From Rufibacter sp. LB8 (GTDB taxonomy: Bacteria; Bacteroidota; Bacteroidia; Cytophagales; Hymenobacteraceae): a stretch of 64,000 nt of DNA. Shown piece by piece: positions 486 to 62,595 of this stretch. The stretch lies in the NCBI RefSeq assembly GCF_014876185.1, contig NZ_JADALJ010000001.1, forward strand, positions 2,027,501-2,091,500. The letters run 5' to 3'. The notes beneath the pieces were generated by a model that was not told where the DNA came from, did not search any database, and saw only the letters and a program-made list of their open reading frames with translations. Position 1 is the first letter of the stretch; each line of letters begins with the position of its first letter. The translations under genes and the position numbers were made by a program.

Positions 486-525
486 CCGTTTTCGGGCTCA
501 TTTCCGGAAATGAGCCCGAAAACAA
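486..525. repeat. 40-bp palindrome, copy 1
   Basis: Near-perfect copy: the left half-site CCGTTTTCGGGCTCATTTC, spacer CG, and a full complement except for the last two bases. It lies between the divergent aminopeptidase and TPR genes. The rest of this roughly 290-base gap holds only the two promoters. Confidence 0.9.
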
Positions 526-637
526 AAGGATAAAAAAACAGTAATGAAACCTAGCGGCCAGGGCGCATGTTCTGTGGGCGTCCTTATCTTTAAACCAGCC
601 TAACGGCAGCATGTGGGGCTGTCCTTCCGCATACCTG

Positions 638-1909
638 ATGAAAAAATTCCTTGCCCTGTTCTTCCTGCTCTTTGGCTTCGCTGCCGCGCAGGCCCAAGTT
701 CCCGACACCACCAAACAGCTGGACCAGAAGTTCCTGGACTCCCTGCAGCGCACCATCAACCTGGACTCAGTGGATGTGCTGCCGCAGGCCCTGGACATCA
801 AAGGCTGGCTACTGCTCAATGAGAGCATCATGAACGAGTTGGGTGGCGCCGTGGACAACATGTACAACTTCAAATTTGAGACCGCTGAGAAGCAGTTCAA
901 ATCTCTGCGCCGCCGCTACCCCAAACACCCCATGCCTTATTTTCTGCTGGGTTTGAGCAACTGGTGGAAGATGGTGCCCTCCAATATCAATGACTCCCGC
1001 TTTGACGCGCCCTTCCTGGCCTACATGGACACCACCATTACGCTGGCCGAGGATTTGTATGACAAGGACAAAAAGAACCTGGAGGCGGCATTTTTCCTTT
1101 CGGCGGCTAACGGCTTTGGGGCCCGTTTGCATTCAGAGCGCAAGAACTGGCGAAAAGCGGCCGTCATGGCTAACCGGTCCCTTGATTACCTGCAGAAAAG
1201 CCGAAAAGCCAACGGCCTCAGTGACGAATTCCTCTTCGGCGAAGCGCTGTTCAACTACTATGCAGTCTGGATCCACGAGAACTACAAAATGCTCCGGCCC
1301 ATCCTCTACTTCTTCCCGAAAGGGAACAAGCAACTGGGACTTCGGCAACTGCAGCAAGTAGCCTTCAACGGCTTTTACACCGGCACCGAGGCGAAATTCT
1401 TCTTGATGAAAATCTATGCCAACGAGACCAACAACGGGCCCGCCGCCATGGCTTTGTCGCAGTACCTGGCTAGCACCTATCCAGACAACCCTTATTTCCA
1501 ACGCTTCTATGCCCGCATGGCGTTTACACAAGGAAATTTAACATTAACGGAGCAGGCTTCTTTACAGATTCTGGAGAAAATAAAACAACGTGCTTTTGGG
1601 TATGAAGCCATCAGTGGGCGCTACGCCAGTTTTTACCTGGGGTATGTGAACCAGCACAAGAACAATGATCTGGCTAAAGCCAAAGCTTATTACCAACAAT
1701 GTATTAGCTTTGCGGAGCAATCCGGCGAAAAAGAGTCTGGGTATTACATTTCTTCTTTTCTAAACTTAGCCCGGATCAGTGACAAGGAGAAAAATGTGAA
1801 GCAGGCCAAGCAGTATTATGAGAAAGTGGTGGACTTGGCTGAATCAAAGTCTGATGCGGAGAAAGAGGCAAAGGCGTATTTGAAGAAAAATAAACGAGTA
1901 AACCAATAA
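638..1909 (+). CDS. secreted TPR-like helical repeat protein
   Basis: The protein is 423 aa from the ATG at 638. An in-frame ATG at 611 exists, but starting at 638 puts a clean signal peptide (MKKFLALFFLLFGFAAAQAQ) at the N-terminus. A near-consensus -7 box (TATCTTTA, 585-592) lies upstream. The mature protein is rich in paired helices with tetratricopeptide-like spacing, for example around residues 70-100 and most clearly in the last 120 residues (AKAYYQQCISFAEQ and AKQYYEKVVDLAES). It is probably a periplasmic or outer-membrane-associated scaffold. No enzyme motif is visible. Its good codon use and GC content contrast with the AT-rich gene that starts six bases after its stop, so the left edge of the polysaccharide island falls here. 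Confidence 0.75.
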   Translation: MKKFLALFFLLFGFAAAQAQVPDTTKQLDQKFLDSLQRTINLDSVDVLPQALDIKGWLLLNESIMNELGGAVDNMYNFKFETAEKQFKSLRRRYPKHPMPYFLLGLSNWWKMVPSNINDSRFDAPFLAYMDTTITLAEDLYDKDKKNLEAAFFLSAANGFGARLHSERKNWRKAAVMANRSLDYLQKSRKANGLSDEFLFGEALFNYYAVWIHENYKMLRPILYFFPKGNKQLGLRQLQQVAFNGFYTGTEAKFFLMKIYANETNNGPAAMALSQYLASTYPDNPYFQRFYARMAFTQGNLTLTEQASLQILEKIKQRAFGYEAISGRYASFYLGYVNQHKNNDLAKAKAYYQQCISFAEQSGEKESGYYISSFLNLARISDKEKNVKQAKQYYEKVVDLAESKSDAEKEAKAYLKKNKRVNQ

Positions 1910-1915
1910 TTTTTA

Positions 1916-3064
1916 ATGCAGAAGAAAATACATTTTCAAAATCTTGACGGCATCAGAACAGTAGCGTTCTTTGCAGTTTTTCTTTGCCACTCAGGCTACA
2001 CCGAATTCAATTCAATAAAGGAATCAAGTATTTATAAGCTTATAAAGTTTGACGTTTGGAATCTAGGCCATATTGGGGTAAACTTATTTTTTGTTTTATC
2101 TGGTTTTTTAATAACATATCTTTTATTAATTGAGGAAAATACTCATGCTAGAATAAATATTCCTAAATTTTACATGAGGAGAATATTAAGAATTTGGCCG
2201 CTATATTTCTTCTGTGTTTTCTTTGGATTCATTATATTTCCGCAATTGAAAACAATATTCAATCAAACACCAAACGAGACGGCAAATATTCTATACTTTA
2301 TAACTTTTTTAAGTAATTTCAATACTATACAAAACGGAACACCAGACTCTTCCGTTTTAAGTGTTTTGTGGTCCGTATCAATAGAAGAACAATTTTATTT
2401 ATTCTGGCCAATCTTAATAATTCTCTTTAAAAAATATCGACCATTTCTCTTTGTAATTTTAATATTATTTTCTTTAGTATTTAGATATTCAAACCTTGGT
2501 AATAATACAACTTTAGACCTTCATACATTTAGTGCTATCAATGATTTATCAATTGGAGGGCTCTTTGCTTGGCTATCTTACAATTCAAACAGTTTTATAA
2601 AATCAATAACTAACCTTAACAAACCAAAGATTATAATCTTTTACATTATCGGATTTCTAGTTATTGCCATGACACCTCATTTTGAAAATTTTGCTATTTT
2701 ACAAACTTTCGAAAGATTAATTCTATCAATATTTTTCATTTTTATCATATTAGAGCAGAATTTTTCAGAAAATTCATTTTATAAATTTAGCAATTTTAAG
2801 ACAATTACTAAATGGGGAAAATACACATACGGATTATATTGCCTTCACTTCATTGGAATACTAATTGCAACCAACACAACCAAATTGTTAAAAATTAACA
2901 CCTCATTACCTTCAGTTCTAATTCTTGACACAATACTAGCACTATCAATAACAATGTGTATTAGTTGGATAAGCTACAACTATTTCGAGAAAAAATTCTT
3001 AAAGCTAAAAACCAAATTTGATACTCACGTTATAATCTCACATAATTCAATCCCAGACAAATAA
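1916..3064 (+). CDS. acyltransferase 3 family membrane protein (OafA/YrhL-like)
   Basis: The 382-aa protein has about ten hydrophobic segments. The family landmarks appear in order: LDGIRTVAFFAVFLCHSGY near residue 10, with the catalytic-type His; FFVLSGFLITYLLL near 60; FYMRRILRIWPLYF near 90; WSVSIEEQFYLFWP near 150; and YTYGLYCLHF near 305. Family members transfer acyl groups, usually acetyl, from the cytoplasm to extracytoplasmic sugars of surface polysaccharides. The acyl donor and acceptor cannot be deduced here. The gene is strikingly AT-rich compared with the upstream TPR gene and starts only six bases after it, which suggests horizontal acquisition of the region to its right. A second, diverged paralogue is encoded at 5562-6671. 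Confidence 0.88.
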   Translation: MQKKIHFQNLDGIRTVAFFAVFLCHSGYTEFNSIKESSIYKLIKFDVWNLGHIGVNLFFVLSGFLITYLLLIEENTHARINIPKFYMRRILRIWPLYFFCVFFGFIIFPQLKTIFNQTPNETANILYFITFLSNFNTIQNGTPDSSVLSVLWSVSIEEQFYLFWPILIILFKKYRPFLFVILILFSLVFRYSNLGNNTTLDLHTFSAINDLSIGGLFAWLSYNSNSFIKSITNLNKPKIIIFYIIGFLVIAMTPHFENFAILQTFERLILSIFFIFIILEQNFSENSFYKFSNFKTITKWGKYTYGLYCLHFIGILIATNTTKLLKINTSLPSVLILDTILALSITMCISWISYNYFEKKFLKLKTKFDTHVIISHNSIPDK

Positions 3065-3117
3065 CAATCTATATACTAATTGAAATATCTAGAATCAAGC
3101 AGCTTACGAAAACAAGC

Positions 3118-4503
3118 ATGAAGAATCAGTTTATTTTTCTCCAAGACTACCTTTTAACACCCTTTTACTTAGCTGCTTTAATATTTTTATTAAATATATA
3201 TTTTAACAAAAAACACGGAAATAACAAACTTCTAAAAAAACATTTCACCCTCGCACTATATTTAAAAATTTTTGGATGCATATCAATTTCATTAATTTAC
3301 CAATATTATTATAAAGGCGCGTATGATGGAACAGCATACTTTAAAGGGGCGAAAATGCTTACCGAATATTGGTTTAAATATCCTGAAGAATTTTATAGAA
3401 CCATTATTGAAGATTTAAAAACTTTTAACTTAACTAATAGAGATGGTTTACATGGAAGAAATTATCACCTTTTTGCAGATGCCTCATTTGTTGTAAGTAA
3501 AGTTGCTGGAGTATTTAATATAATTTCATTCAACTCCTTTTTACCAAACGCATTGTTTTTTTGCACCATTGCCTTTATTGGCCTTTGGAATTTTTTTATA
3601 TTCATTATACAAGAATTTAAAATCCCTCTAAAAGCAGCAGCTTTATCTACGCTTTATATACCTTCAGTTTTGGTGTGGGGATCTGGCATATTTAAAGATA
3701 CAATCACTTTTACAGCTTTGTTATGGTTGTTCATGTGCGGATACTATGTATTTATTAAAAGAAGAAAAATTATTATCAATATTATTGCTATTATAATCTG
3801 TACAATTCTTATTTACAGTATTAAATCATATATTATCGCTGCGTTCATTCCATTCTTTATAATTTTTGTGGTAAATAGTAACAAAAACCAAATAAAAAAC
3901 CCATTAATCCGCACTCTTAGCATCCCGCTAATGCTAATAATAGGTATTGGCAGCATGTCATTATTTCTAAAATATGCTGACGATCTGTTTGGAAGATATT
4001 CTGTTGATTCCGTGCTTGAAACTGCCTCGATGACAGCGTATTATATCAATGAGCAAAAAGCTGGCTCCACTTACACTCTGAATGTGGATTTTTCTTCACC
4101 CGCAGGTATTGTTGCTGCAATACCCTTAGCTATTAACATTACCCTTTTTCGCCCTTACCCTTGGGAGTACCTTAACCCATTTATCTTGTTTGCTTCAATT
4201 GAGAGCATGTTATTCCTTTATTTTACAATAAAGCTTTTGTTTAAAAAAGGATTAACAAAATCATTTGGAATTATTTGGAATAATCCTATCATTCATTTCT
4301 GCTTGTTGTTCAGCCTTACTTTTGCTTTTATGGTTGGTGTTTCGTCTGCCAACTTTGGTTCATTAGTAAGGTATAAAATACCAATTATGCCTTTCTATTT
4401 ACTATTCTTAGCAGTTTTATATAAAGAAAAATACACTGTAGACAAACAAAAAAGAAAGAAAAGAAAGAGCACTGCCTTAAACCAAACGCCTTTTCATCAG
4501 TAA
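3118..4503 (+). CDS. multi-pass membrane protein, Wzy-like polysaccharide polymerase candidate
   Basis: The 461-aa protein has roughly ten or more membrane segments and a basic, lysine-rich C-terminal tail (KEKYTVDKQKRKKRKS). A conserved-looking block around residue 180 (LYIPSVLVWGSGIFKDTI) lies just after a membrane segment. Proteins with this block occur among uncharacterised membrane proteins of Bacteroidota polysaccharide clusters. I infer a role in assembly or polymerisation of repeat units because the locus otherwise has glycosyltransferases and a flippase but no recognisable polymerase. No catalytic residues can be assigned. The gene is AT-rich, is 53 bases downstream of the acyltransferase, and is followed by the IS982-like element. 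Confidence 0.5.
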   Translation: MKNQFIFLQDYLLTPFYLAALIFLLNIYFNKKHGNNKLLKKHFTLALYLKIFGCISISLIYQYYYKGAYDGTAYFKGAKMLTEYWFKYPEEFYRTIIEDLKTFNLTNRDGLHGRNYHLFADASFVVSKVAGVFNIISFNSFLPNALFFCTIAFIGLWNFFIFIIQEFKIPLKAAALSTLYIPSVLVWGSGIFKDTITFTALLWLFMCGYYVFIKRRKIIINIIAIIICTILIYSIKSYIIAAFIPFFIIFVVNSNKNQIKNPLIRTLSIPLMLIIGIGSMSLFLKYADDLFGRYSVDSVLETASMTAYYINEQKAGSTYTLNVDFSSPAGIVAAIPLAINITLFRPYPWEYLNPFILFASIESMLFLYFTIKLLFKKGLTKSFGIIWNNPIIHFCLLFSLTFAFMVGVSSANFGSLVRYKIPIMPFYLLFLAVLYKEKYTVDKQKRKKRKSTALNQTPFHQ

Positions 4504-4564
4504 TCTAATCCTATTCAAAATCTAAGCAGGATATTTTTTAAAAATTGCTATTCCGCTATTATTT

Positions 4565-5486
4565 AATCCAAGTTGCGATTTAGTGGCATTATAAAACTAT
4601 GAAGCCACTCAGGCATGTTCAGGAAAAAGTAACCACACTTAATTCTTGACTTGCCATGAATGACTTCACGATAGCAATTTACTGTTTTGTTGATGATTAT
4701 TTGCAAATAGCGGGCACGAAAACGGCGGCCAAACGCAAGCTGAGCGACGCGGAGGTCATCACCAAGGCGCTAGTGGCAGCGCGCTTCTTCGGAAGCAACA
4801 TGACTACGGCCAGCAACTACATGCGGCAGCACCAGAAGTACCCATGCCGCACAAGAGCAAATCTACCGCGTGCTGCACCGCCTGAGCAAGGTCATAGCGG
4901 GCATCTCCCTAGCCTTGGACGACAGCCTCAAGGAACTCAACACCTCCAGTGAGTTCGTCATCGAGAGCTTTCCGGTGGCCGTGTCCCGCAACATCCGCAT
5001 CAATCGGTGTAGGTTGCTGCAGGAAGAGGCCTACAGGGGCTACAACGCCTCCAAGAGGGAGTACTTCTACGGCTTCAAGGTGCAGCTCGTCGTAACCGCC
5101 GACGGGCTGCCGGTCGACTGCTTCATCGTGGCCGGCAGCGTGCACGACGGCATGGCCCTTCAGGCCATGCACCTGGACCTGCCGCCGGGCAGCAGCCTGT
5201 ATGGCGACAGCGCCTACACCAACTACGAAATGGAGGACCTGATGGAGGAGTGCGAGCGGGTGAACCTGCTCACCCAGCGGAAAAGCAACAGCAAACGGAA
5301 AGACAGCCCGGCGATGGACTATATAAAAACCGCTATGAGTAAGAAGATAGAAACCACCTTCAGCGAAATCACGGCGGCCTTCCCGCGATCAATCCATGCC
5401 GTAACGCCCGAGGGATTCCTGCTCAAGCTAGTCCTCTTTATCTTTGCTTACACCATCAACAAATGTATTTAATCGCAACTTGGATT
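4565..5486 (+). mobile_element. IS982-family insertion sequence, decayed
   Basis: A 922-bp element is bounded by perfect 16-bp terminal inverted repeats: AATCCAAGTTGCGATT at 4565-4580 and its complement at 5471-5486. ATTT flanks both ends (4561-4564 and 5487-5490) and may be a short target duplication, although the DNA is AT-rich there. The transposase stop codon overlaps the right inverted repeat, as in compact IS elements. Its higher GC content than the genes on either side indicates a later insertion. It separates the Wzy-like gene from the second acyltransferase. Confidence 0.85.
4656..5472 (+). pseudogene. IS982-family transposase, frameshifted
   Basis: The N-terminal part (4656 onward, starting MNDFTIAIYCFVDDYL) and the C-terminal part (frame ending at 5472) are in different frames. 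The first frame carries the family N-terminus up to SNYMRQHQ, and the second resumes at IYRVLHRLSKVI and continues to the end. The expected joining residues (MPHKS) appear in the third frame around 4844-4858, so at least two small indels lie between about 4835 and 4862. The C-terminal part has typical DDE transposase blocks, including YGFKVQLVVTADGLPVD and LYGDSAYTNYEMED. The combined length of about 272 residues is slightly short for the family. The enzyme is probably inactive unless frameshifting occurs. Confidence 0.85.
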
Positions 5487-5561
5487 ATTTATACTATGTA
5501 AATAGAAAAGCAAGAATTTGACCTTATATTTGCGGCAATATTTTACCTACTTTTTCAGTAT

Positions 5562-6671
5562 ATGAGTGGAGTTGTTCATTTTAAAGGATTAAATGGCATT
5601 AGAGCCTTTGCAGCAGTGGCAGTAGTAATTTCTCATACTTCTTTAGCTAGCGAAAGCTTTAATCTGGAGCCGCTTTTTGGCTATAATCCTGATGGTAGTG
5701 CAAAAGGTTACATGCTAGCCGGGTTTGGAGTTAGTATGTTTTTTGCGTTAAGCGGGTTTCTTATAACCTACCTCCTTCTTGTAGAAAAGAAAAAGAATTC
5801 AATAAATGTTCCTCACTTCTATTATCGGCGAATTCTAAGAATATGGCCTTTGTATTACCTTTACTTAGCAACTAGTTTAGCGGTAGCCACAATCTATAAT
5901 ATAGAATATCCTGCTTCATCTGTCCCTTTTTATGTTTTACTTGCTGCCAACGTTCCTTTTTTGTTTGAAGCATATGTACCCTTTGTGGCACATTACTGGT
6001 CTGTGGCAGTAGAAGAACAGTTTTACCTTTTTTGGCCATGGCTTGTAAAATTCACCCACAAATACTTTTTAACAAAAGTGATGGCAATAGCTGGACTTCT
6101 AATTGTATTGAAAGTGTTGTTTCACATACTTCCAGGTACTGAAATAATTTCCTCAGCTATTGGAATTACTAGGGTACACTGCATGATGATTGGGGCAGGT
6201 GGCGCTATTCTTTACTATCGTGGCAATCAATTATTTGAAAAAATTTCTACCCATTTACTTACCCAAGCCCTTTGTTGGATAGTAATGTTATTGATCATAC
6301 TTAATAAATTTCATGTTGCCTCTATACTTGATAGTGAGATTGTGTCGGTTGTTACTACACTAATAATTATTAGTCAAATAACACGTAAAAACTACATAGT
6401 AAGTTTAGATAATCGCTTTTCTGATTTTCTAGGTAAGATTTCATATGGCTTATATATTATTCACCCTTTACTTATCTTCTTTTTAGGAAAGGCTATAGGA
6501 GGTTTAAATTTAGAGCCTATACTCAAGCTTCCTTTAGTCTATGGAAGTGTGTTAGGTTTAACTATACTACTTTCTTATGTTTCTTATACATATTTTGAAA
6601 AACCGTTTTTAAAAATAAAAAATAGGTTTGCCACTGTTAAAAGCTCAGGAACGGCTATCAGTAAGATTTGA
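5562..6671 (+). CDS. acyltransferase 3 family membrane protein (second copy)
   Basis: The 369-aa integral membrane protein has the same order of landmarks as the gene at 1916-3064: LNGIRAFAAVAVVISHTS near residue 10 with the conserved His, FFALSGFLITYLLL near 65, FYYRRILRIWPLYY near 88, WSVAVEEQFYLFWPWL near 150, and ISYGLYIIHPLLIF near 290. It is presumed to acylate surface polysaccharide. It is paralogous to the first copy but clearly diverged, so it is not a recent duplication. The two may modify different sugars. The gene sits between the two insertion sequences, and its stop codon is immediately followed by the left end of the IS3 element, so a truncated C-terminus cannot be excluded, though the length is typical. 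Confidence 0.88.
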   Translation: MSGVVHFKGLNGIRAFAAVAVVISHTSLASESFNLEPLFGYNPDGSAKGYMLAGFGVSMFFALSGFLITYLLLVEKKKNSINVPHFYYRRILRIWPLYYLYLATSLAVATIYNIEYPASSVPFYVLLAANVPFLFEAYVPFVAHYWSVAVEEQFYLFWPWLVKFTHKYFLTKVMAIAGLLIVLKVLFHILPGTEIISSAIGITRVHCMMIGAGGAILYYRGNQLFEKISTHLLTQALCWIVMLLIILNKFHVASILDSEIVSVVTTLIIISQITRKNYIVSLDNRFSDFLGKISYGLYIIHPLLIFFLGKAIGGLNLEPILKLPLVYGSVLGLTILLSYVSYTYFEKPFLKIKNRFATVKSSGTAISKI

Positions 6672-6740
6672 TTGTAAGTATCCCTAAAACCGAGACAGTT
6701 TAAAAGTAGACAAAAAGGGTTTAGTTTTAAACTGCAAAAG

Positions 6741-7031
6741 ATGAGATAGAGCAGAATCAGTGAAAGCCAGATAGTAAAGTCTATCAAGGAAAATGAGTCT
6801 GGTCGGAAGACCGAGGATATTTGCCGGGAGCTGGAAATAAGCCGGGCCACGTTTTACATATGGAAAAGCCGGTATGGAGGTTTGGAAGCCTCAGATGTCA
6901 AGCGGCTGAAAGAGCTGGAAGAAGAAAATGCCCGGATGAAGAAGATGTTCGCTGATCTGAGCCTGGACCACTCCGTTCTAAATAAAGTAATAACAAAAAA
7001 AGGCTGGGGCCTTGGCAACAAAAGCAATTAG
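6741..7031 (+). pseudogene. IS3 transposase orfA with a stop at codon 3
   Basis: From ATG at 6741 the frame reads M-R-stop and then continues open as SRISESQIVKSIKENE to the stop at 7031. Intact IS3 orfA proteins begin with the same pattern but with Lys in place of the stop, so a single AAG-to-TAG change explains it. The rest is a normal helix-turn-helix domain (TEDICRELEISRATFYIWKSRYGG) followed by a leucine-zipper-like segment (VKRLKELEEENARMKKM). Translation could still start at a non-ATG codon after the stop. Otherwise the DNA-binding part is lost. Confidence 0.8.
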
Positions 7032-7864
7032 CCGAAGAATTGGTTTCGGACTATGCTTTACCGGTTACCAAGGCCTGCGGGCTCAGCAGCCTGGCCCGCT
7101 CCCAGTTTTATAACAAGAGCCGCAAGGATGACACGGAAATAATAAGCGCTCTACAGGCGTTGGACGACGAGCATCCGGTGTATGGCTTCCGCAAGCTTCA
7201 GGCCTGCCTGAAAAGGGACGGGAAGGCGTGGAACCACAAGCGGGTGTACCGGGCTTACAGGCTCTTAAAGCTGAATAAAAAGAAAAGGGGTAAGAGAAGG
7301 TGGCCGGCCCGGGTAAAACAGCCCCTGCAAGCGCAAGAAGTGCTGAACAACAGCTGTAGCATGGATTTCATGAGCGACAGCTTGGCCTCGGGCAACAAAT
7401 TCAGGACGTTGAATATAATTGATGACTGCAACAGGGAAGCATTGGCGATAGAGATTACCACTTCCATCACGGCCAAAAGAGTCGTGCGCCCCTTGGAACA
7501 GCTCATTGACTGGAGTGGTAAGCCAGCTGCCATCCGGGTGGATAATGGCCCGGAGTTTACCAGTGCTGATTTCAATTCCTGGTGCAAGAAGGAGGAAATC
7601 ACTATCCAATATACCCAGCCGGGAAAGCCCATGCAGAATGGGTATGTTGAACGGTTTAATGGCAGTTACCGCCGGGAAATACTCAATGCCTACTTGTTTT
7701 TCGACCTGGAGGAAGTGCGGCAGTTAACCGGGCAGTGGATAGGGGAATACAATACCAAAAGGCCGCACGAGGCGTTGGGCAACTTAACCCCAAGCCAATG
7801 GCCAGTGAAAAAGGGAAGTGGAAATATGGTAAACTTACCTCCGCACCTTGCCCCGCCGCCGTAA
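6986..7864 (+). CDS. IS3-family transposase orfB (integrase catalytic domain)
   Basis: This frame is open from 6986. A TTG at 7040 is the first plausible independent start, but in IS3 elements this part is normally made by -1 frameshifting from orfA. The slippery run AAAAAAG is present at 6996-7002, and shifting there joins NKVITKK to RLGPWQQKQLAEELV. The protein has an HTH_21-like segment (DDEHPVYGFRKLQACLKRDG) and an rve integrase core with the DDE residues: Asp in SMDFMSD, Asp in RVDNGPEFTS, and Glu in YVERFNGSYRREIL. The catalytic part looks intact. Confidence 0.85.
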   Translation, partial: SNNKKRLGPWQQKQLAEELVSDYALPVTKACGLSSLARSQFYNKSRKDDTEIISALQALDDEHPVYGFRKLQACLKRDGKAWNHKRVYRAYRLLKLNKKKRGKRRWPARVKQPLQAQEVLNNSCSMDFMSDSLASGNKFRTLNIIDDCNREALAIEITTSITAKRVVRPLEQLIDWSGKPAAIRVDNGPEFTSADFNSWCKKEEITIQYTQPGKPMQNGYVERFNGSYRREILNAYLFFDLEEVRQLTGQWIGEYNTKRPHEALGNLTPSQWPVKKGSGNMVNLPPHLAPPP

Positions 7865-8016
7865 GTTTACCACATTCCCACTTCCTGATAGCATCGATAA
7901 TGGAAGTAGAAAAGTCTGCTTTAGACTGACCGAAAAATGGGGTACTTACACTAATATTACAATAGAGGCATGTATTCTACCAACGCATTATACTTTTTAA
8001 ATCACTTACCCGATTC

Positions 8017-9096: not shown

Positions 9097-9102
9097 AGCA
9101 GT

Positions 9103-10344: not shown

Positions 10345-10459
10345 CTTAAATAGTCACTTACGCTAGAACAATGATCTACTGGATATAATTTCAAAGCTCT
10401 CAAACGCAGTGTAAGCTCAATCAATTGAAAAGCAGGTATTGTGCAATTCGGAATAATTA

Positions 10460-11665: not shown

Positions 11666-11727
11666 AATAAAAACAGCTACTTATTAGCTTTTTAACAAAA
11701 CACATTTTTTAACAAAGATCCAGTCCA

Positions 11728-14352: not shown

Positions 14353-14399
14353 ATATCGATATAAGATATCCTCGATTCAGACTTACTGACTCAACATGC

Positions 14400-16414: not shown

Positions 16415-16415
16415 A

Positions 16416-19936: not shown

Positions 19937-19975
19937 CCGTTTTTGCCTCCATTTCCAAAATAGAGCCCAAAAACG
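19937..19975. repeat. 40-bp palindrome, copy 2 (degenerate)
   Basis: The left arm reads CCGTTTTTGCCTCCATTTC and the right arm AAATAGAGCCCAAAAACG; several bases no longer pair. It lies in the 494-base gap between asnB and the next leftward gene. Apart from two palindrome copies and the asnB promoter I see nothing in that gap. Confidence 0.7.
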
Positions 19976-20069: not shown

Positions 20070-20109
20070 CTGTTTTCGGCCTCATTTCTGGAAATGAGGC
20101 CGAAAACAG
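20070..20109. repeat. 40-bp palindrome, copy 3 (compensated variant, extended arms)
   Basis: The half-site reads GTTTTCGGCCTCATTTC and the other arm carries the matching change GAAATGAGGCCGAAAAC. Extra pairing extends the perfect arms outward through AAGCTTCTG to about 20064-20115, making this the longest hairpin of the family in the window. Confidence 0.92.
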
Positions 20110-24700: not shown

Positions 24701-24740
24701 CCGTTTTCGGGCTCATTTCTGGAAATGGCCATCAAAACAG
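24701..24740. repeat. 40-bp palindrome, copy 4 (right arm damaged)
   Basis: The left arm is intact (CCGTTTTCGGGCTCATTTC) and the spacer is TG, but the right arm is altered to GAAATGGCCATCAAAACAG. It directly abuts the end of the ArsI/CadI relic. Confidence 0.85.
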
Positions 24741-25194: not shown

Positions 25195-25234
25195 CCGTTT
25201 TGGGGCTCATTTCCAGAAATGAGCCCCAAAACGG
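25195..25234. repeat. 40-bp palindrome, copy 5 (compensated variant)
   Basis: The half-site has GTTTTGGGGCTCATTTC instead of GTTTTCGGGCTCATTTC, and the right arm carries the matching GAAATGAGCCCCAAAAC, so the hairpin is fully paired. It lies just after the sigma-factor relic. The remaining 205 bases before the next gene show no feature. Confidence 0.93.
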
Positions 25235-26150: not shown

Positions 26151-26190
26151 CCGTTTTCGGGCTCATTACTGGAAATGAGGCCGAAAACGG
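26151..26190. repeat. 40-bp palindrome, copy 6
   Basis: The left arm is CCGTTTTCGGGCTCATTAC and the right arm GGAAATGAGGCCGAAAACGG; outer bases CTC and GAG also pair. It lies in the 309-base gap between flavin reductase and the FAD oxidoreductase. I see nothing else in that gap. Confidence 0.88.
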
Positions 26191-31161: not shown

Positions 31162-31201
31162 CCGTTTTCGGGCTCATTTCCAGAAATGAGCCCGAAAACG
31201 A
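31162..31201. repeat. 40-bp palindrome, copy 7
   Basis: Near-perfect: CCGTTTTCGGGCTCATTTC, spacer CA, and GAAATGAGCCCGAAAACG. It lies between two convergent genes (ends at 31052 and 31226) and could act as a bidirectional terminator: the right arm is followed by AAAAAG and no other terminator is visible. Confidence 0.93.
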
Positions 31202-31225: not shown

Positions 31226-33313
31226 CTACAACCTATACCGCACTTGCACTCGCACATCCGTTCGGGCATTGCCCTGAATCATTTCCAATCCGCTGCCAAT
31301 GGTGTCTTGCCCGCGGTACTGCGTGTGGCTGATTTTGAACCAGAGGTCTAACTGTCTGGTAAGCCGCTGCTGCGCCAGGAAGTACACATGCGACCCTCGG
31401 CCAATGAATACGGGAATGGCGAAGGCATAAAGCACATCCTGCTCGGGCACGTATTGGCGGGTGTCATAATCATCAGTGTCAAAGAGGGCGTAGCGCATGG
31501 TAAGGCGGGTGAAGTTGCGCTCCCAGGAGGCGTCCTGCGACATGAAATACCCTTCGCGGCGCGGGCCCGACTGCTGGAACTGGCTCACTTGTACCCGGCT
31601 GCGCAACCTTAAACTGGGCAAAGGGCTCAAATCCAGCAACAGTAAATAGCGGTGCAGAAAAGTGGGCGTGACTTGGTTCAGGGCGTCGCCGGAGACGGTT
31701 TCATTGCGGGCCTTGCGTTGGTATTGGTATTGGCCGTAGAGAAGCGTGGTTTTGGAGGGCATGAACTGCAAGCGCGCTAAGTACTCCTCGCCGTCTGAGG
31801 GCGCATCTACTCGGTACCGCAGCCAGGAGAACGTGAACCGGTCATAGTAGGCGGTGAGTTGCCAGCGGTTGCTGAGTTTCAATTTCAGGCCCGTGTACAA
31901 ACCGGTTTCATTCTGGTTGCGGCTGCTTTCGCCAAATGCGTTGCCGTACAGGCTCTGGAAGTTGCGGTCATAGTGCCGGTGGAGAAGGGCCACTTCCACG
32001 CGCTCAGATAAACTCACCAGCACGCCGTTCACGCTTCCCAAACCGCCATTGGCAGACCGCGCCACCTCCCCGAAGAAATTCAGATTCTGCCACAGATAGC
32101 TGTAATGCAAACCCACGCCGTGGTTCTGATTCCCAGCGAAATTAAATCTGGCATACGGCTCTGCCCTATCCTGTAGCGGCAAATTAAACCAAGAGCCCAA
32201 GGCCGTCAACCCCACGCTAAAGGTCTGGCTGGGGTTTCTATACGTCACATCTCCGCCCAGAACTTGTTCCCGCACGCGCAGCCGGTTGGCCACCTCAGTG
32301 GGTGTGCGGTGCAGGCCCGAGGTCTGAATGTTTCCCGCCAGCGCCACTTCCAGAGAATCTTGCGCCAGTGAACTCGCCGCCGAGGCATCTACCTTTCTAT
32401 TGGAGTAAAACACCGTAGTTTCCAGCCGTCGCCAGCGGTGCGTGGCGGCCAGGCCTCTGAAATAAAACGCCTCTAGGGCCGACGTGTGCGGCCGGATGCC
32501 CGTTTGGCTCCGGCGAAGCGTAGTGATGGTTTCGCCGCCTTTGCCCACACTCAAGCCGCCGCTCAGCAATAGTCCTTGGCCAAACTGCAACTGATAATCT
32601 CCTAAGGCAACAGTTTTGAACGCACCTTTATTATAAACCTGGGCGTGCGCCGAAAGGAAATCAAACCCATACAGACTAGTGCCAGGTTGCCAGCCAAATT
32701 TTTCGCCCGCATCTTTCTCGGCGGTCACGCCAAAACTGAAATCACGCGGTTGGCTCAACCGGTACCGCAGCAGGTATTTATCAGGCGAGCCTTGGTAACG
32801 CGTAGTGGACCGGCCTTCTGCTGGGGTGTAGCCGCGCTGCTCCTGCAAGGTGCGGTCATAGCGCAGCAAAAGCGTGTGCGTGTCGGCGTTTTTGAGGCGC
32901 TGCCGCCAGGGTTGATGATCATTTACACCCTGGGTTTGAATGGTCACAAAAGGCAATAACCGCCTAATAGTGATTAAATCGAAGGTGGGAATGGACTGCA
33001 ATTCATAGAGACTCACCAACCGTCCGTTGTCTGAAACATGGGTGAGCAGCGCGGTAATCTGGGGTTCTGAAAGCAGCCAAAGGCCACGGAGTTCTTCGCG
33101 GGAGGCGCGGTTGAGGTCTAAAGGTTGGCGGTAATACTGGAGCAGGGTTTCGTAGAGGTCCTCGTAGGGAATGGCGTTTTCATCTGTCTGCTGCGCGAAG
33201 AGTTCCTGAATCAGCAGTTCCACATCTACCGCGGGGCGCGGAATTTCCTGCGCAAAACCTAAGAACTGTTTTAGGCTCAGGATCAGAAACAGAGGCCAAA
33301 AACGCAGGTTCAT
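31226..33313 (-). CDS. helix-hairpin-helix outer-membrane beta-barrel-like protein
   Basis: The 695-aa protein has a signal peptide (FLILSLKQFLGFAQ). Near residues 60-120 is a double helix-hairpin-helix-like region (QPLDLNRASREELRGLWLLSEPQITALLTHV, then LVSLYELQSIPTFDLITIRRLLPFV) like that of ComEA. The remaining 500 residues are made of alternating aromatic/polar strands (LLRYRLSQPRDFSFGVTAE and many similar), ending MIQGNARTDVRVQVRYRL, as expected of an outer-membrane barrel with a C-terminal aromatic-rich strand. This combination is a conserved Bacteroidota protein of unknown function; DNA uptake has been suggested for HHH proteins but is not shown here. Its ATG overlaps the stop of the PorV-like gene. 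Confidence 0.72.
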   Translation of the reverse strand: MNLRFWPLFLILSLKQFLGFAQEIPRPAVDVELLIQELFAQQTDENAIPYEDLYETLLQYYRQPLDLNRASREELRGLWLLSEPQITALLTHVSDNGRLVSLYELQSIPTFDLITIRRLLPFVTIQTQGVNDHQPWRQRLKNADTHTLLLRYDRTLQEQRGYTPAEGRSTTRYQGSPDKYLLRYRLSQPRDFSFGVTAEKDAGEKFGWQPGTSLYGFDFLSAHAQVYNKGAFKTVALGDYQLQFGQGLLLSGGLSVGKGGETITTLRRSQTGIRPHTSALEAFYFRGLAATHRWRRLETTVFYSNRKVDASAASSLAQDSLEVALAGNIQTSGLHRTPTEVANRLRVREQVLGGDVTYRNPSQTFSVGLTALGSWFNLPLQDRAEPYARFNFAGNQNHGVGLHYSYLWQNLNFFGEVARSANGGLGSVNGVLVSLSERVEVALLHRHYDRNFQSLYGNAFGESSRNQNETGLYTGLKLKLSNRWQLTAYYDRFTFSWLRYRVDAPSDGEEYLARLQFMPSKTTLLYGQYQYQRKARNETVSGDALNQVTPTFLHRYLLLLDLSPLPSLRLRSRVQVSQFQQSGPRREGYFMSQDASWERNFTRLTMRYALFDTDDYDTRQYVPEQDVLYAFAIPVFIGRGSHVYFLAQQRLTRQLDLWFKISHTQYRGQDTIGSGLEMIQGNARTDVRVQVRYRL

Positions 33314-34483: not shown

Positions 34484-34523
34484 CCGTTTTCGGGCTTATT
34501 TCTGGAAATGAAGCCAAAAACGC
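34484..34523. repeat. 40-bp palindrome, copy 8
   Basis: The left arm CCGTTTTCGGGCTTATTTC and right arm GAAATGAAGCCAAAAACG have compensating T/A changes at one pair. The copy follows the small secreted protein gene by about 15 bases. Confidence 0.85.
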
Positions 34524-34728
34524 AACTGTAGCGTGATGGCACCCCTTCCCTTGACCAAACGTGCTCGGCTTTTATAAATATTGACTTCAGGCAAATTTCT
34601 TTGGCCTGTCAGGGGACAGACCAAGGTGGAGTTATTCGCAGTTTCCCTTCGGTGAAAGGTCATGTCCAAAAAGAGACGTTTCAGTTTCATGGAGACACGT
34701 CGTGTCAGTGCCACGACGCTACGGTTCT

Positions 34729-34766
34729 GGTTTATGCTCCATTTCAGGTTTAGAGCCCGAAAACGG
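34729..34766. repeat. 40-bp palindrome, copy 9 (half)
   Basis: The right arm GAGCCCGAAAACGG (34753-34766) is intact, preceded by ATTTCAGGTTTA; the left arm is barely recognisable. It is in the roughly 400-base convergent gap 34470-34870, which otherwise holds copies 8 and 10 and a terminator. Confidence 0.6.
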
Positions 34767-34802
34767 AAAACTCTCAAACCCGCCAATCCAAAATGAGACA
34801 AT

Positions 34803-34836
34803 AAAAAACGCCCAGTGTTCTCACTCTGGGCGTTTT
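34803..34836 (-). terminator. intrinsic terminator of the S46 peptidase gene
   Basis: AAAAAACGCCCAG and CTGGGCGTTTTT form a perfect stem with a short loop, flanked by A and T tracts, 35 bases past the stop of the leftward peptidase gene. It can work on both strands. Confidence 0.85.
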
Positions 34837-34867
34837 TGGGCTCTAAATCAGAAATGAAGCGAAAACC
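34830..34867. repeat. 40-bp palindrome, copy 10 (degenerate, fused to a terminator)
   Basis: GCGTTTTTGGGCTCTAAATC and GAAATGAAGCGAAAACC share the family pattern with mismatches. Its left end is the T tract of the terminator at 34803-34836. Confidence 0.65.
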
Positions 34868-34870: not shown

Positions 34871-37177
34871 TTAGCTTTTCTTCTTTTTCACTTCCTTCTT
34901 GATCTTGGTCTCGTTGCCTTTCTTCTTGATTTTGATTTCCTCGGTTTCAGATTCTATCTCCATCTTGCCTTCCATCTTAATGTCATTGATGGCGGGGTTG
35001 AACTGCGTGTTGGGGTTGCCGTTGTTCACCAGGGTCATCTCGTTGATTAAATGACCGGCATTGGCGAACTTGTCCATAATAAAGAGCACGTACTTGATGT
35101 CAACGTTGATGCAGCGCTTGTACTCTTTGTCAAACACCAAGTCACCGGTCATGGCTTCCCAGTTTCCGTCGAAGGCCAGGCCAATCAGCTCGCCTCTTCC
35201 GTTGATGACCGGTGAGCCCGAGTTACCGCCCGTGATGTCATTGTTGGTGATGAAGCCCACGCGCAGCTCGCCGTTCTCGCCGTACTTGCCATAGTCTTTC
35301 TGGCGGTACAGTTCCATCAGTTTGGCGGGTACAATAAACTCCTCGTTGGTAGGGTCTTCTTTTTCGGCTAAGCCATCAAGCGTGGTGTAGTACTTGTATT
35401 CCACGCCGTCTTTGGGCTCGTAGCCTTGCACGGTGCCGTAGCTTAATCTCAATGTAGAATTGGCGTCTGGGTAGAACACTTTGTTCGGGCTCATTTCGCG
35501 CAGACCGGCTACATACAAACGGTTGGCGCGCGCCAAAGCGGCGTTGTATTCGTTCATTTTAGGCAGCACGTTGTTCTGGTAGTTCAACTGCACAGCGCGC
35601 ATGAATTTGAACGCAGGGTCATTTTCCAGCACTTTCAAGGTTGGGTTCGCCAAAAACGCTTTGGCTTTGGCCTCAGAAGAAAGCACCGACTTGGAGTATA
35701 CATCAGCGGCCCATTTCTTGAAATCGCCTTTATAGGTGGTGGTCAGGTCTTTGAAAATATCAGCGTGCTGGGCTTTGGGAACGTCATTGTAGTACATCTG
35801 CATCAGCTCGGCAAAGATTTTCTGGTCGGCGGCGGGCACGTAGCTGGCGTAGAACTCCGTGTTCATTTCCTGGTAGCCTTGTGTCAATTCTGCCAGTTTG
35901 CTTTTATCAGCTTTGGGGTCTTTCAGGAAGTTGTAGAGCGGCGTGTACTGATACGCGTGCGCGATTAACTGCGGGGCCAACGCCGCCTCTGACCGGTAAA
36001 TCACCGACATATTGTAATCGCGCTGGCCTTTGTACGAAGCGTTGATGTCTGGCAAAGTGCTTCCATACAAGGTTTTACGACCCGCCTCCCCATCGGCCCA
36101 GGTTTGGAAAGCTTTTTCCTCAGCGGCTTTCTTATCAAGGGTTTTCATGCGCTTAATACCCTCGTTCTGCCCTATATAATATTTATAGTAATTGCTGATG
36201 TTGGCGTAGTTAGAGGCCAGTTTCAATCTATCTGCAGGGGAGGCATCCATGGATTCTTTCATCAAGGCCAACCGACGCTCGCGCAATTTGATACGCGCGG
36301 GATTGGACTGGTCTACGGCCATGCTCAAACCGGCACCCGTCATAAACCGCGTGGTACGCCCCGGGAACCCGAACACCATAGCAAAATCGCCTTCCTTCAC
36401 GTTGCTCATGGAAATAGGCAAATGGTGCTTAGGACGGTACGGTACGTTTTTCTCAGAATAGGTAGCCGGTTTTCCGTCTGGGGCCATGTACACTCTAAAC
36501 ATAGAGAAGTCGCCGGTATGGCGCGGCCACATCCAGTTGTCCGTGTCGCCACCGAATTTTCCTACGCTTTCCGGCGGGGTCCCTACCAGGCGCACATCAG
36601 AGAAACGCTCGTAGACAAACAGGTAGAACTCGTTGCCATTGTAGAAATCACGCACGTAGCTCACGTACTGGTTGTTGTTTTTGGCGGCATCGGCTAAGGC
36701 TCTGGAGCGCTCAGCTACCAATTTGCCGCGCTCCTGTTCAGACGTTTGGGCCGTAATGCCTTGCAGCACCTGGCCGGTCACGTCTTCCATGCGCACCAGA
36801 ATGTCTACAAACAGGCCATCGTTTTTCTTTTCCTGCTGCTTGGTCTGGGCCCACCAACCGTCTTTCAAAATATTGTCCTGCGGCGTGGAGTTAGACGCGA
36901 TGGCATCATACCCGCAGTGGTGGTTGGTCAAAAGCAAGCCTTCCTTGGAGATGAATTCGCCGGTACAAAATCCCCCGAACGACACAATGGCATCTTTCAA
37001 GCTGGCATTGTTGACGTTGTAAATCTCTTCGGCGGTAAGTTGCAGGCCTTGTTTCTGCATATCTACGTGGTTCAGGCGCTTGACCAGCAGCGGAAGCCAC
37101 ATGCCTTCGTCTGCCTTGGCCTGGTAGGAAAAACCTACGCTCAGCAACAGAAGGGCGGTATAAAGTTTCTTTAGCAT
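34871..37177 (-). CDS. S46 family dipeptidyl peptidase (DPP7/DPP11-like)
   Basis: The 768-aa periplasmic serine exopeptidase has a signal peptide MLKKLYTALLLLSVGFSYQAKA. The chymotrypsin-like catalytic triad is visible: His in LLLTNHHCGYDAI near residue 85, Asp in WPRHTGDFSMFRVY near 220, and Ser in TGGNSGSPVINGRGELIGLAFDGNWE near 650. S46 enzymes release dipeptides from oligopeptide N-termini and allow peptide-based growth in Bacteroidota. The exact P1 specificity (hydrophobic or acidic) cannot be set with confidence from sequence alone here. A highly basic tail (KIKKKGNETKIKKEVKKKKS) extends the C-terminus. A -7 box (TATCTTTG) lies 23 bases upstream. Confidence 0.93.
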   Translation of the reverse strand: MLKKLYTALLLLSVGFSYQAKADEGMWLPLLVKRLNHVDMQKQGLQLTAEEIYNVNNASLKDAIVSFGGFCTGEFISKEGLLLTNHHCGYDAIASNSTPQDNILKDGWWAQTKQQEKKNDGLFVDILVRMEDVTGQVLQGITAQTSEQERGKLVAERSRALADAAKNNNQYVSYVRDFYNGNEFYLFVYERFSDVRLVGTPPESVGKFGGDTDNWMWPRHTGDFSMFRVYMAPDGKPATYSEKNVPYRPKHHLPISMSNVKEGDFAMVFGFPGRTTRFMTGAGLSMAVDQSNPARIKLRERRLALMKESMDASPADRLKLASNYANISNYYKYYIGQNEGIKRMKTLDKKAAEEKAFQTWADGEAGRKTLYGSTLPDINASYKGQRDYNMSVIYRSEAALAPQLIAHAYQYTPLYNFLKDPKADKSKLAELTQGYQEMNTEFYASYVPAADQKIFAELMQMYYNDVPKAQHADIFKDLTTTYKGDFKKWAADVYSKSVLSSEAKAKAFLANPTLKVLENDPAFKFMRAVQLNYQNNVLPKMNEYNAALARANRLYVAGLREMSPNKVFYPDANSTLRLSYGTVQGYEPKDGVEYKYYTTLDGLAEKEDPTNEEFIVPAKLMELYRQKDYGKYGENGELRVGFITNNDITGGNSGSPVINGRGELIGLAFDGNWEAMTGDLVFDKEYKRCINVDIKYVLFIMDKFANAGHLINEMTLVNNGNPNTQFNPAINDIKMEGKMEIESETEEIKIKKKGNETKIKKEVKKKKS

Positions 37178-37525: not shown

Positions 37526-37565
37526 GCGTTTTCGGGCTCGTTTTAGGAAATGAAGCCGAAAACGG
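37526..37565. repeat. 40-bp palindrome, copy 11
   Basis: GCGTTTTCGGGCTCGTTTT, spacer AG, GAAATGAAGCCGAAAACGG. It sits between yidD and the cytosine deaminase gene. Confidence 0.88.
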
Positions 37566-41575: not shown

Positions 41576-41616
41576 AAAAAAACGGCGTCCTCTCAATTTG
41601 AGGAGACGCCGTTTTT
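41576..41616. terminator. bidirectional intrinsic terminator
   Basis: AAAAAACGGCGTCTCCTC-type arms (AACGGCGTCCTCTCAA and TTGAGGAGACGCCGTT) with A and T tracts on the outside lie between two converging genes. The T tract runs directly into palindrome copy 12. Confidence 0.88.
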
Positions 41617-41648
41617 GGCTTCATTTTCAGAAATGAGCCCGAAAACGC
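41609..41648. repeat. 40-bp palindrome, copy 12 (fused to a terminator)
   Basis: CCGTTTTTGGCTTCATTTT, spacer CA, GAAATGAGCCCGAAAACGC. Its first seven bases are also the right foot of the terminator at 41576-41616. Its far end touches the lgt stop codon. Confidence 0.85.
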
Positions 41649-44090: not shown

Positions 44091-44130
44091 CCGTTTTTGG
44101 CCTCGTTTCTGGAAATGAAGCCGAAAACGG
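44091..44130. repeat. 40-bp palindrome, copy 13 (abutting a terminator)
   Basis: CCGTTTTTGGCCTCGTTTC, spacer TG, GAAATGAAGCCGAAAACGG. It follows the T tract of the ferredoxin terminator with no gap. Confidence 0.9.
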
Positions 44131-46651: not shown

Positions 46652-46691
46652 TCGTTTTCGGGCTCGTTTTCAGAAATGAAGCCGAAAACGG
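46652..46691. repeat. 40-bp palindrome, copy 14
   Basis: CGTTTTCGGGCTCGTTTTC, spacer around CA, GAAATGAAGCCGAAAACGG. It starts seven bases after the M14 peptidase stop codon. Confidence 0.88.
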
Positions 46692-46775: not shown

Positions 46776-46815
46776 CCGTTTTCGGCCCCATTTCTGAAAA
46801 CGAGCCCGAAAACGA
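46776..46815. repeat. 40-bp palindrome, copy 15 (inverted-looking variant)
   Basis: CCGTTTTCGGCCCCATTTC, spacer TG, AAAACGAGCCCGAAAACGA. The variant bases resemble the typical arms swapped, as if the copy lies in the opposite orientation to copy 14, 85 bases away. Between them is a short hairpin around CCCCCTTCAACGGGGAACAATG. Confidence 0.82.
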
Positions 46816-53023: not shown

Positions 53024-53063
53024 GCGTTTTCGGGCTCGTTTTGGGAAACGGGGCGGAAAACGG
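53024..53063. repeat. 40-bp palindrome, copy 18
   Basis: GCGTTTTCGGGCTCGTTTTG, then GGAAACGGGGCGGAAAACGG; several pairs are lost. It lies just after the vapC stop on the minus strand. Confidence 0.85.
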
Positions 53064-53791: not shown

Positions 53792-53831
53792 GCGTTTTCG
53801 GGCTCGTTTTGGGAAATGAAGCTAAAAACGG
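53792..53831. repeat. 40-bp palindrome, copy 19
   Basis: GCGTTTTCGGGCTCGTTTTG, then GGAAATGAAGCTAAAAACGG. It lies upstream of vapB and almost matches copy 18 on the other side of the toxin-antitoxin pair. Confidence 0.85.
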
Positions 53832-59495: not shown

Positions 59496-59528
59496 AGACC
59501 TCACAGGTTTTGGAAACCTGTGAGGTCT
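59496..59528. repeat. second hairpin type, perfect copy
   Basis: AGACCTCACAGGTTT, a three-base loop, and AAACCTGTGAGGTCT pair perfectly. Similar hairpins occur elsewhere in Bacteroidota as far as I recall. Confidence 0.85.
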
Positions 59529-59537
59529 GCGCCAATT

Positions 59538-59577
59538 GCGTTTTCGGGCTCTGGATTGGAAATGGAGGCGAAACTGG
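59538..59577. repeat. 40-bp palindrome, copy 21 (degenerate)
   Basis: GCGTTTTCGGGCTCTGGATTG then GAAATGGAGGCGAAACTGG; the centre is altered. Confidence 0.75.
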
Positions 59578-59652
59578 AATTCTGTGGCTGGTTGTAGAGA
59601 CCAGGCACTGCCTTGTCTCTACGGTAGAGGTCCCGACAAACGCCTGCTCAAA

Positions 59653-59687
59653 AGACCTCGTAGTGTGCGAAGCTCCTACGAGTGTCT
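59653..59687. repeat. second hairpin type, variant copy
   Basis: AGACCTCGTAGTGTGCGAAG then CTCCTACGAGTGTCT; the arms CTCGTAG and CTACGAG pair. Confidence 0.65.
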
Positions 59688-59696
59688 CTGCCAATC

Positions 59697-59736
59697 CCGT
59701 TTTCGGGCTCTATTTCGGAAATGTAGGATAAATCAG
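59697..59736. repeat. 40-bp palindrome, copy 22 (right arm lost)
   Basis: CCGTTTTCGGGCTCTATTTC is good; GGAAATGTAGGATAAATCAG shows a decayed right arm. Confidence 0.75.
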
Positions 59737-59840: not shown

Positions 59841-59882
59841 ACGCTGCCCGATTGCCTGCCTTCCAACAGGCGCTCGCTCCAA

Positions 59883-59917
59883 AGACCTCGTAATGCGCGC
59901 AACTCCTACGAGCGTCT
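59883..59917. repeat. second hairpin type, variant copy 2
   Basis: AGACCTCGTAATGCGCGCAA then CTCCTACGAGCGTCT; close to the copy at 59653-59687. Confidence 0.65.
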
Positions 59918-59928
59918 CTCGCCAAATC

Positions 59929-59968
59929 TCGTTTTTCCCTTCATTTCCCAAAACGAGCCCGAAAACGG
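59929..59968. repeat. 40-bp palindrome, copy 23 (left arm decayed)
   Basis: TCGTTTTTCCCTTCATTTCC on the left and AAAACGAGCCCGAAAACGG on the right. The good arm is on the right, opposite to copies 20-22, as if inverted. It touches the pectate lyase terminator. Confidence 0.75.
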
Positions 59969-62414: not shown

Positions 62415-62419
62415 ACAAC

Positions 62420-62427
62420 CAAATATA
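62420..62427 (-). promoter_or_regulatory. -7 promoter box (TATATTTG) of the pectate lyase gene
   Basis: Minus-strand TATATTTG matches TAnnTTTG, 82 bases upstream of the ATG at 62338. Confidence 0.55.
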
Positions 62428-62502
62428 GTTTCTTTTTTCTAATCTACCAGTCCTTATTTGGTAAAACTTTCAATCACCGGTAATTATTAGGTTCAAAACT
62501 GA

Positions 62503-62514
62503 GCAATCGATTAC
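62503..62514 (-). promoter_or_regulatory. LacI-family-type operator O2
   Basis: GCAATCGATTAC matches O1 at 11 of 12 positions and lies 100 bases further upstream, a spacing that would allow looping between two repressor dimers. Confidence 0.6.
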
Positions 62515-62555
62515 CTACATGAATACTACTGCACCTGCCTAACCATCAGTCATTT

Positions 62556-62595
62556 CCGTTTTGGGGCTCATTTCTGAAAATGAGCCCCAAAACGC
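62556..62595. repeat. 40-bp palindrome, copy 24 (compensated variant)
   Basis: CCGTTTTGGGGCTCATTTC, spacer TG, AAAATGAGCCCCAAAACGC. It carries the same paired change as copy 5. It lies upstream of the pectate lyase operators and next to the terminator at 62605. Confidence 0.92.

Follow-up and report, generated by a model that had tools for sequence, protein, structure and literature searches.

A 64,000-nt stretch of the Rufibacter sp. LB8 genome (hereafter the window; G000:C1:2027501-2091500, G000 being the 4.75-Mb, two-contig source genome) carries repeated copies of a 38-bp palindrome that is spread through every genome of the genus sampled. The family is confined to that genus among the genomes sampled, is spelled in species-specific dialects around a fixed 2-bp centre and near-invariant T columns, and is often placed at gene ends. 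It is read here, with slightly less than even confidence, as a double-stranded, two-fold-symmetric site for a putative abundant DNA-binding protein of the genus, situated in non-coding gaps throughout the core chromosome, in most cases at gene ends. Where bacteria carry many palindromes of the repeated extragenic palindrome (REP) type, the explanation given is a hairpin multiplied by a transposase. The family described here, with as many as about 1,750 copies in a genome, behaves in several respects like duplex protein sites. It offers a system for asking by what route more than 1,000 scattered sites come to share a change of sequence, and whether genome-wide boundary elements at gene ends exist in bacteria.

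The unit consists of two 18-bp half-sites and a 2-bp centre (CGTTTTCGGGCTCATTTC-NN-GAAATGAGCCCGAAAACG), and copies of the source genome have conserved flanks, TTTCC..GGAAA. A preliminary description of the window had listed about 24 scattered palindromes of one type, each a half-site, a two-base spacer and the complement, at about one per 2 kb past 20 kb. The architecture was recovered exactly (with a 19-nt half-site), and so was the count. Direct-repeat families D1-D3 from a repeat finder mark 24 distinct places (D2 and D3 mostly overlap D1), and one further place, 35479, comes from a search with half-site CCGTTTTCGGGCTCATTTC, giving 24-25 full or partial copies. With 3 mismatches tolerated, that half-site matched 30 times in the window, at 20 places, and 100 dinucleotide shuffles produced no match. 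With a cut of 36 on a joint similarity-plus-pairing score, 19 places pass, and one base-shuffled window peaks at 29; 18 of the 19 copies lie at or past 19938, and the stretch 525-19937 has none, in keeping with the density first described. Copies had also been placed outside intact genes; within the window the only exceptions are two low-scoring open reading frames (ORFs) of our own gene caller (24569-24766 and 24971-25241). An Rfam search of the window at the gathering score returned 0 matches, and no description of the family was found in the open-access literature as represented by titles and abstract starts (weak evidence of absence); as far as these searches go, the sequence corresponds to no named element.

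Copy number was determined genome-wide with two patterns. A strict palindrome pattern, which is biased toward the G000 spelling, gave 1,026 copies in G000 and 1-271 in 15 congeners. A genus motif, built from the columns common to all dialects with up to 2 mismatches allowed, gave 1,751 copies in G000 and 132-1,747 in the other 15 genus genomes (G012, G017, G022, G032, G048 and G054 are codes for genomes among them). Copies are therefore far from few outside the window, and the initial count understates the genome. Elsewhere in the family the motif gave 0-4 copies per genome in 134 sampled (above zero in 9), and 0-2 in each genome sampled from the order's other families. With the pattern reversed as a control, G000 gave 1 (strict pattern) and 0 (genus motif), and the genomes searched with the motif gave 0-1. 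A structural scan of two Pontibacter loci (38.6 kb) gave 2 matches, one of which falls within a called gene; seven Hymenobacter loci (148 kb) and one Adhaeribacter locus (21 kb) gave none. By RibBA, in a search that may omit near records, the closest named matches were in Adhaeribacter, Pontibacter and Hymenobacter genomes; a Rufibacter tibetensis plasmid gave a stretch of 76% identity. Since 16 of 16 genus genomes were positive and the other genomes of the family had 0-4 copies, the palindrome is genus-wide and, in this sample, genus-restricted. Further statistics for G000 are from 864 kb of the 4.75 Mb (the window and 40 stretches of 20 kb), with 339 copies; sister genomes are represented by about 7-200 kb each.

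Several features speak for a duplex site. As in protein-bound operators or nucleoid sites, the half-sites keep a fixed distance and are separately conserved: among arms without internal insertions or deletions, 586 of the 592 that have a partner (nine genomes) lie exactly 2 bp from it. When arms were not required to match, G1 and T2-T4 were conserved at 85-100% and T14-T15 at 92-100% over the nine genomes, T3, T4, T14 and T15 each reaching 92-100% in every one of them; variation within or between genomes is seen at columns 6, 9, 12, 13 and 17, among others. The inner halves show little arm-to-arm compensation, pairing at inner arm columns being about the same as in shuffled arms. G-U pairs were not clearly preferred in tandem copies of G000 (220 G-U vs. 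193 A-C, p = 0.20), compared with 38 vs. 18 in 91 canonical terminators for which both pair types were allowed equally (Fisher p = 0.045 vs. palindromes). The corresponding counts in sister genomes (tandem 330:385, convergent 232:182, divergent 184:87) are unusable, because those copies were detected with G-U scored as paired. The fixed centre, the invariant columns, the shuffled-like inner pairing and the lack of G-U preference are the reasons for preferring a duplex two-fold protein site, and of the functions initially proposed a nucleoid-protein site is now best supported (by spacing, invariant columns, inner arms and positions conserved chromosome-wide), with binding itself putative. That the columns stay near-invariant despite high divergence argues for selection. 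Mechanistically, a dimeric protein would read both half-sites as duplex DNA, and its role could be architectural or resemble that of a boundary, whether in the nucleoid, as a barrier to supercoiling or as a roadblock to transcription at gene ends. E. coli REPs, which are also intergenic repeats, are bound by IHF, Pol I and gyrase (PMC6006769); here the site is single and symmetric. A kinkable centre step was rejected as a trait of the whole family, the step being pyrimidine-purine in 88% of copies in G000 vs. 12% in G048. A role in replichore orientation was also rejected, as the asymmetric CA/TG centre had no strand bias relative to replichores assigned by GC skew (41:56 vs. 86:80, p = 0.16).

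Placement was analyzed by spacer type, with genes called by our own codon-usage script. Among spacers of at least 60 bp, occupancy was 74/87 for convergent, 157/280 for tandem and 30/95 for divergent ones, the divergent and tandem labels being approximate because the caller (coding fraction about 0.77) misses some genes; a smaller first sample (464 kb, slightly laxer cut) gave 43/45, 75/129 and 20/53. Only 9 of 339 copies fell inside well-scored genes, every one weak (26-29 of 36 consensus bases). The median distance from stop codon to palindrome was 27-30 nt, and 49 of 182 tandem copies (27%) started within 12 nt of the stop, vs. 7% under random placement and 21% when an 80-nt promoter zone was excluded; promoter avoidance thus explains much of the gene-end bias.

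Along the chromosome, copies per 20 kb were fairly even (mean 8.0, 4-13 over the 40 stretches) save for one stretch with zero (L241), which carries conjugative-transposon genes of Bacteroides type, from the TraG, TraJ, TraK and TraM families (Pfam, NCBIfam). Most of the palindrome-free stretch 525-19937 of the window is low in GC: from about 2000 to 19000 most 4-kb bins have a GC content of 0.35-0.43, and this low-GC block is probably a gene cluster gained by horizontal transfer. The second contig (155 kb), probably a plasmid, had one divergent copy in the 40 kb sampled. Four spacing statistics, all nominal, were compared with class- and length-matched permutations. The coefficient of variation of gaps was 0.851 vs. 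0.937 (at most 0.6% of 500 permutations), indicating more even spacing; gaps above 6 kb made up 2.7% vs. 5.1% (0.2%), and gaps below 1.5 kb 42.1% vs. 45.4% (3%).

Each species has its own consensus half-site: CGTTTTCGGGCTCATTTC in G000, CGTTTTTGGCCTGTTTTC in G022 and G017, CGTTTAGGGGCTGTTTTT in G048 and CGTTTTGGGCCTGTTTTC in G012. Dialect-specific spellings are GTTTTCGGGC in G000, GTTTTTGGCC in G022/G017 and GTTTAGGGGC in G048. A sub-family mixture was rejected, one oriented class having the best Bayesian information criterion among models of 1-6 classes, and no derived polarity is claimed for the CATTTC dialect of G000, whose position in the tree is unresolved (support 0.03). The dialects could arise by drift of the protein's specificity or by homogenisation between copies. 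Positions are shared across dialects. Past the gene ending at 50650, 10 of the 14 genomes having the gene carry a palindrome at a distance of 1-4 nt from the stop, with spelling and decay state varying, and past the gene ending at 58978 a palindrome stands just 3' of the gene's terminator in 10 of 16 genomes, G000 having no copy there. Orthologous gene ends in high-density genome pairs (excluding G022-G017) were occupied in both genomes in 158 cases, in one only in 53 + 65 and in neither in 42 (odds ratio 1.9, p = 0.013, the pairs being mutually non-independent). Distance from the stop agreed within 5 nt in 63 of the 158 co-occupied ends, vs. 12% in random pairs, and in 231 of 563 co-occupied ends over all genome pairs. 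Individual sites are old. Identity at fourfold sites is 0.46-0.70 in seven species pairs, so 38-mers without selection would be expected to be largely eroded; they are maintained either by selection at each site or by homogenisation between sites. For the G022-G017 pair, 25 of 50 spacers had a palindrome in both genomes, 16 in neither and 9 in one only; paired copies were barely more alike (identity 0.787; 30 pairs, at least 2 spurious) than random cross-genome (0.741) or within-G022 pairs (0.764), though identity did reach 95-97% in a few.

A more specific proposal goes beyond the duplex site itself: a dimeric protein of the genus would mark gene ends of the core chromosome at more than 1,000 rigid 38-bp sites and act as a boundary or roadblock at convergent genes, site and protein changing together in each species and copies evolving in concert at conserved positions. 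This is put forward tentatively and, taken whole, is unlikely.

Several observations weigh against a protein-bound duplex site. The fixed centre was measured on indel-free arms only, and for 93 of 685 forward arms the search, with up to 5 mismatches allowed, turned up no partner. In several genomes there is covariation at columns 0, 5 and 6 and at flank positions -5 to -1. With 10-nt flanks included, native copies form more stable folds than arm-swapped ones in 9 of 9 genomes (200 copies for G000). A duplex site alone would not require these features. The 38-bp core is stabler than swapped in G012, G054 and G032, and less so in G022; the inner 22 bp of G012 reach -5.95 vs. -5.54 kcal/mol swapped (standard deviation 0.09), and column 17 of the G000 tandem copies has 52 G-U vs. 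28 A-C pairs (nominal p = 0.0097). Pairing in the outer part may plausibly be supplied by the terminator hairpins in or beside which many copies sit. Copies are decayed in several sister species. The fourth spacing statistic, the variance of counts, was unremarkable vs. permutation (12%), GC did not predict copy number (rho = 0.18), and a stretch of low GC (L159, 36.5%) carries 5 copies. At least 111 of 351 G000 copies have neighbouring DNA that recurs at other copies, as expected of mobile units.

The folding results fit an RNA element, a 3'-untranslated-region hairpin that would assist a neighbouring intrinsic terminator in termination or protect the mRNA 3' end. The short distances from stop codons, a 48-nt consensus that folds at -34 kcal/mol, the flank covariation and the many copies that adjoin or lie inside terminator-like hairpins (often before or after the palindrome) all speak for it. 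The practically fixed centre, the scant compensation in the inner arms, the absence of a clear G-U preference, the 30 of 95 divergent spacers with copies and the stop proximity already predicted by promoter exclusion speak against it, and on balance it is quite unlikely. An intrinsic terminator, one of the first proposals, finds no support as an account of the element: G-U pairs lack a clear advantage in tandem copies, and no T-run follows the stem directly. The commonest bases after tandem copies are G (82%), A (66%), A (73%), A (56%) and then T (50%, 47%), the usual pattern being GTTTT..AAAAC, GGAAA and about 50% T. Bidirectional intrinsic terminators are likewise palindromic and lie between convergent genes; here the T-run is 5' and the A-run 3', the reverse of theirs, and true terminators often adjoin the palindrome. 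In a strict T-run test of 280 tandem gene ends, 104 had a palindrome without a detected terminator and 43 had both. Another alternative is that the palindrome marks the genome's own DNA for uptake or recombination, with biased uptake driving copies and dialects, like the DNA uptake sequences (DUS) of Neisseria, which are about 10-12 bp long. The high copy number, the near-invariant-core dialects, the chromosome-wide spread and the scarcity in foreign DNA match DUS-dialect logic, Neisseriaceae DUS also having genome-wide copies, inverted pairs near terminators and dialects with an invariant core (PMC3630211). DUS are short units, however, and are common in genes (PMC3630211), whereas here the 38-bp pair is the unit (only 16 of 629 G000 arm matches lack a partner) and the in-gene copies are as rare and weak as noted above. 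Single half-sites being this rare, the uptake idea is weakened to the point of being very improbable.

The more serious competitor, though still a rather doubtful one, is a REP-like selfish repeat, that is, non-autonomous elements copied by a transposase (a REP-associated tyrosine transposase, RAYT, or another), with dialects as lineage master sequences; such repeats would be cleared from genes and promoters, leaving them mostly at gene ends, which agrees with the lowest occupancy being in divergent spacers. Besides the recurring flanks, a repeated core of about 100 bp gave 38 matches in the 864 kb, and 22 of these have a palindrome no more than 20 nt away (its model was built from nine cores picked beside palindromes). 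This core includes a GTAGAGAC..GTCTCTAC hairpin (8 exact in the 864 kb) that resembles the 'double foot' REP of PMC6006769. In G032 four loci (L295-L298) share a 154-160 bp element resembling a miniature inverted-repeat transposable element (MITE), with GGCTGTGTCTGAAAAATG inverted ends and a palindrome copy inside. From the recurring flanks, the composite core and the MITE-like element it follows that palindrome copies travel as passengers, and the original spread was probably by copies riding in composite intergenic repeats and MITEs. The suggestion of a non-autonomous mobile element thus survives for some copies, yet 7 of the 9 discordant G022/G017 spacers were inspected and none was a clean insertion with an empty site (no closer strain was compared). 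The preliminary description had also seen no tyrosine transposase in the window, which says little, since Y1_Tnp matches number 6 in the whole genome; congeners have 0-6, G017 being without any. A RAYT protein query matched in 15 of 16 genus genomes; copy number correlated weakly with RAYT matches (rho = 0.45, p = 0.08) and with Y1_Tnp counts at rho = 0.20. Against such a driver, G017 has 1,067 copies in a homogeneous dialect and no Y1_Tnp or RAYT match, either by Pfam profile or by protein query at E 0.001, and the G000 and G022 RAYTs are 98% identical, yet their dialects differ; both observations count against RAYT as a universal driver. Among 33 Y1 loci (45 matches listed), 22 gave an ORF with the HuH motif and 11 gave none; a palindrome lay within 150 nt on both sides of 0 of the 22 and on one side of 5. 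The near-invariant columns at high divergence point to selection and also count against a purely selfish origin. REP populations last for millions of years, and E. coli genomes without RAYT that have fewer REPINs are known (PMC8049555), so the RAYT-less G017 weighs against a REP/REPIN system but does not exclude it. The GTAG REP/REPIN families share with this one hundreds of short extragenic palindromes, gene-end bias, species-specific sequence, persistence and mosaics with other repeats. They differ in having a GT[AG]G tetranucleotide at the hairpin foot, absent here (flank consensus TTTCC|GTTTT), and two inverted REPs with a diverse spacer in place of one rigid 38-bp palindrome; here the inner stem shows little compensation, no REPtron-like arrangement was found at the 22 Y1 genes with a HuH ORF, and the G017 population is homogeneous without a detectable RAYT. 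CGTC-tagged REPs, reported from Bacteroidetes as well, are short palindromes without a dedicated transposase, predominantly downstream of genes, and in this they are similar; their stem is 8-9 bp, the loop 4-5 and the end CGTC (PMC3733652), whereas here the arm is 18 bp, the centre 2 bp, the half-site start CGTTTT and the end CGTT or TGTT across genomes. As a classification, the best-supported placement would be among repeated extragenic palindromes in the broad sense, outside the GTAG and CGTC REP families, whose defining features it lacks, and with a REP-like dispersal history.

Palindrome copies in the window, with positions counted from its first base
Feature	Position	Strand	Basis or remark
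Palindrome copy, 38 bp	487..524		In divergent spacer; half-site and joint-score searches
Palindrome copy, degenerate	19938..19975		Repeat finder and joint score
Palindrome copy, 18/18 arm pairs	20071..20108		Half-site and joint-score searches
Palindrome copy, one arm decayed	24702..24739		Half-site and joint-score searches
Palindrome copy, GTTTTGGGGC sub-type, 18/18 pairs	25196..25233		Half-site and joint-score searches
Palindrome copy, stop codon 46 nt before	26152..26189		Joint score and gene calls
Palindrome copy, 36/36 consensus bases, convergent spacer	31163..31200		Joint score and gene calls
Partial degenerate copy	33268..33311		Repeat-finder span, D2
Palindrome copy	34485..34522		Joint score
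Partial degenerate copy	34727..34780		Repeat-finder span, D1
Partial degenerate copy	34817..34865		Repeat-finder span, D3
Lone half-site, 3 mismatches	35479..35497	+	Half-site search
Palindrome copy	37527..37564		Joint score
Palindrome copy adjoining 3' end of gene 41648-42487 (-)	41610..41647		Joint score and gene calls
Palindrome copy immediately past T-run of terminator-like hairpin	44092..44129		Joint score
Palindrome copy, 7 nt past M14 peptidase stop	46653..46690		Gene end occupied in 5/15 orthologues, source included
Second palindrome copy, in the spacer of the 46653..46690 copy	46777..46814		Joint score
Palindrome copy, 39 nt past gene end 48781	48821..48858		Gene end occupied in 8/14 orthologues
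Palindrome copy, convergent, 2 nt past stop 50650	50653..50690		Gene end occupied in 10/14 orthologues, 1-4 nt from stop
Palindrome copy between ribBA (-) and next gene (-)	53025..53062		Joint score and gene calls
Palindrome copy	53793..53830		Joint score
Partial copy	59525..59573		Repeat-finder span, D3
Partial copy adjoining repeat 59633-59689	59684..59732		Repeat-finder span, D3 and D12
Palindrome copy adjoining repeat 59863-59919	59930..59967		Repeat finder and joint score
Palindrome copy, GTTTTGGGGC sub-type	62557..62594		Half-site and joint-score searches

Other repeats and genes were seen near the palindromes. In the window, 59633-59689 and 59863-59919 represent a second intergenic repeat, the one with 38 matches in the 864 kb, which forms mosaics with the palindrome. 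It is built of a core, ACACTCGTAGGAGCTGCGC..CTACGAGGTCTTTTGAGC, and, after it, a GTAGAGACAAGGCA..TGCCTTGTCTCTAC hairpin; from its sequence the hairpin looks like a double-foot GTAG REP. About 44 kb past the window end, G000:C1:2135606-2136801 holds two close RAYT-like genes in opposite orientation, one of which is the gene 98% identical to the G022 RAYT, and probably transferred, because that value far exceeds the 82% protein identity of the compared block. In the spacers of stretch L166, some terminator-like stems contain the half-site reversed in order (GAGCCCG.AAACG..CGTTTTCGGGCTC, then a T-run), as if half-sites had been recruited into terminator stems there. The same spacers and their sister spacers carry another dispersed intergenic inverted repeat, TGTCATCCTGAAAGGATCTTGT..ACAAGATCCTTTCAGGATGACA, common to several species of the genus.

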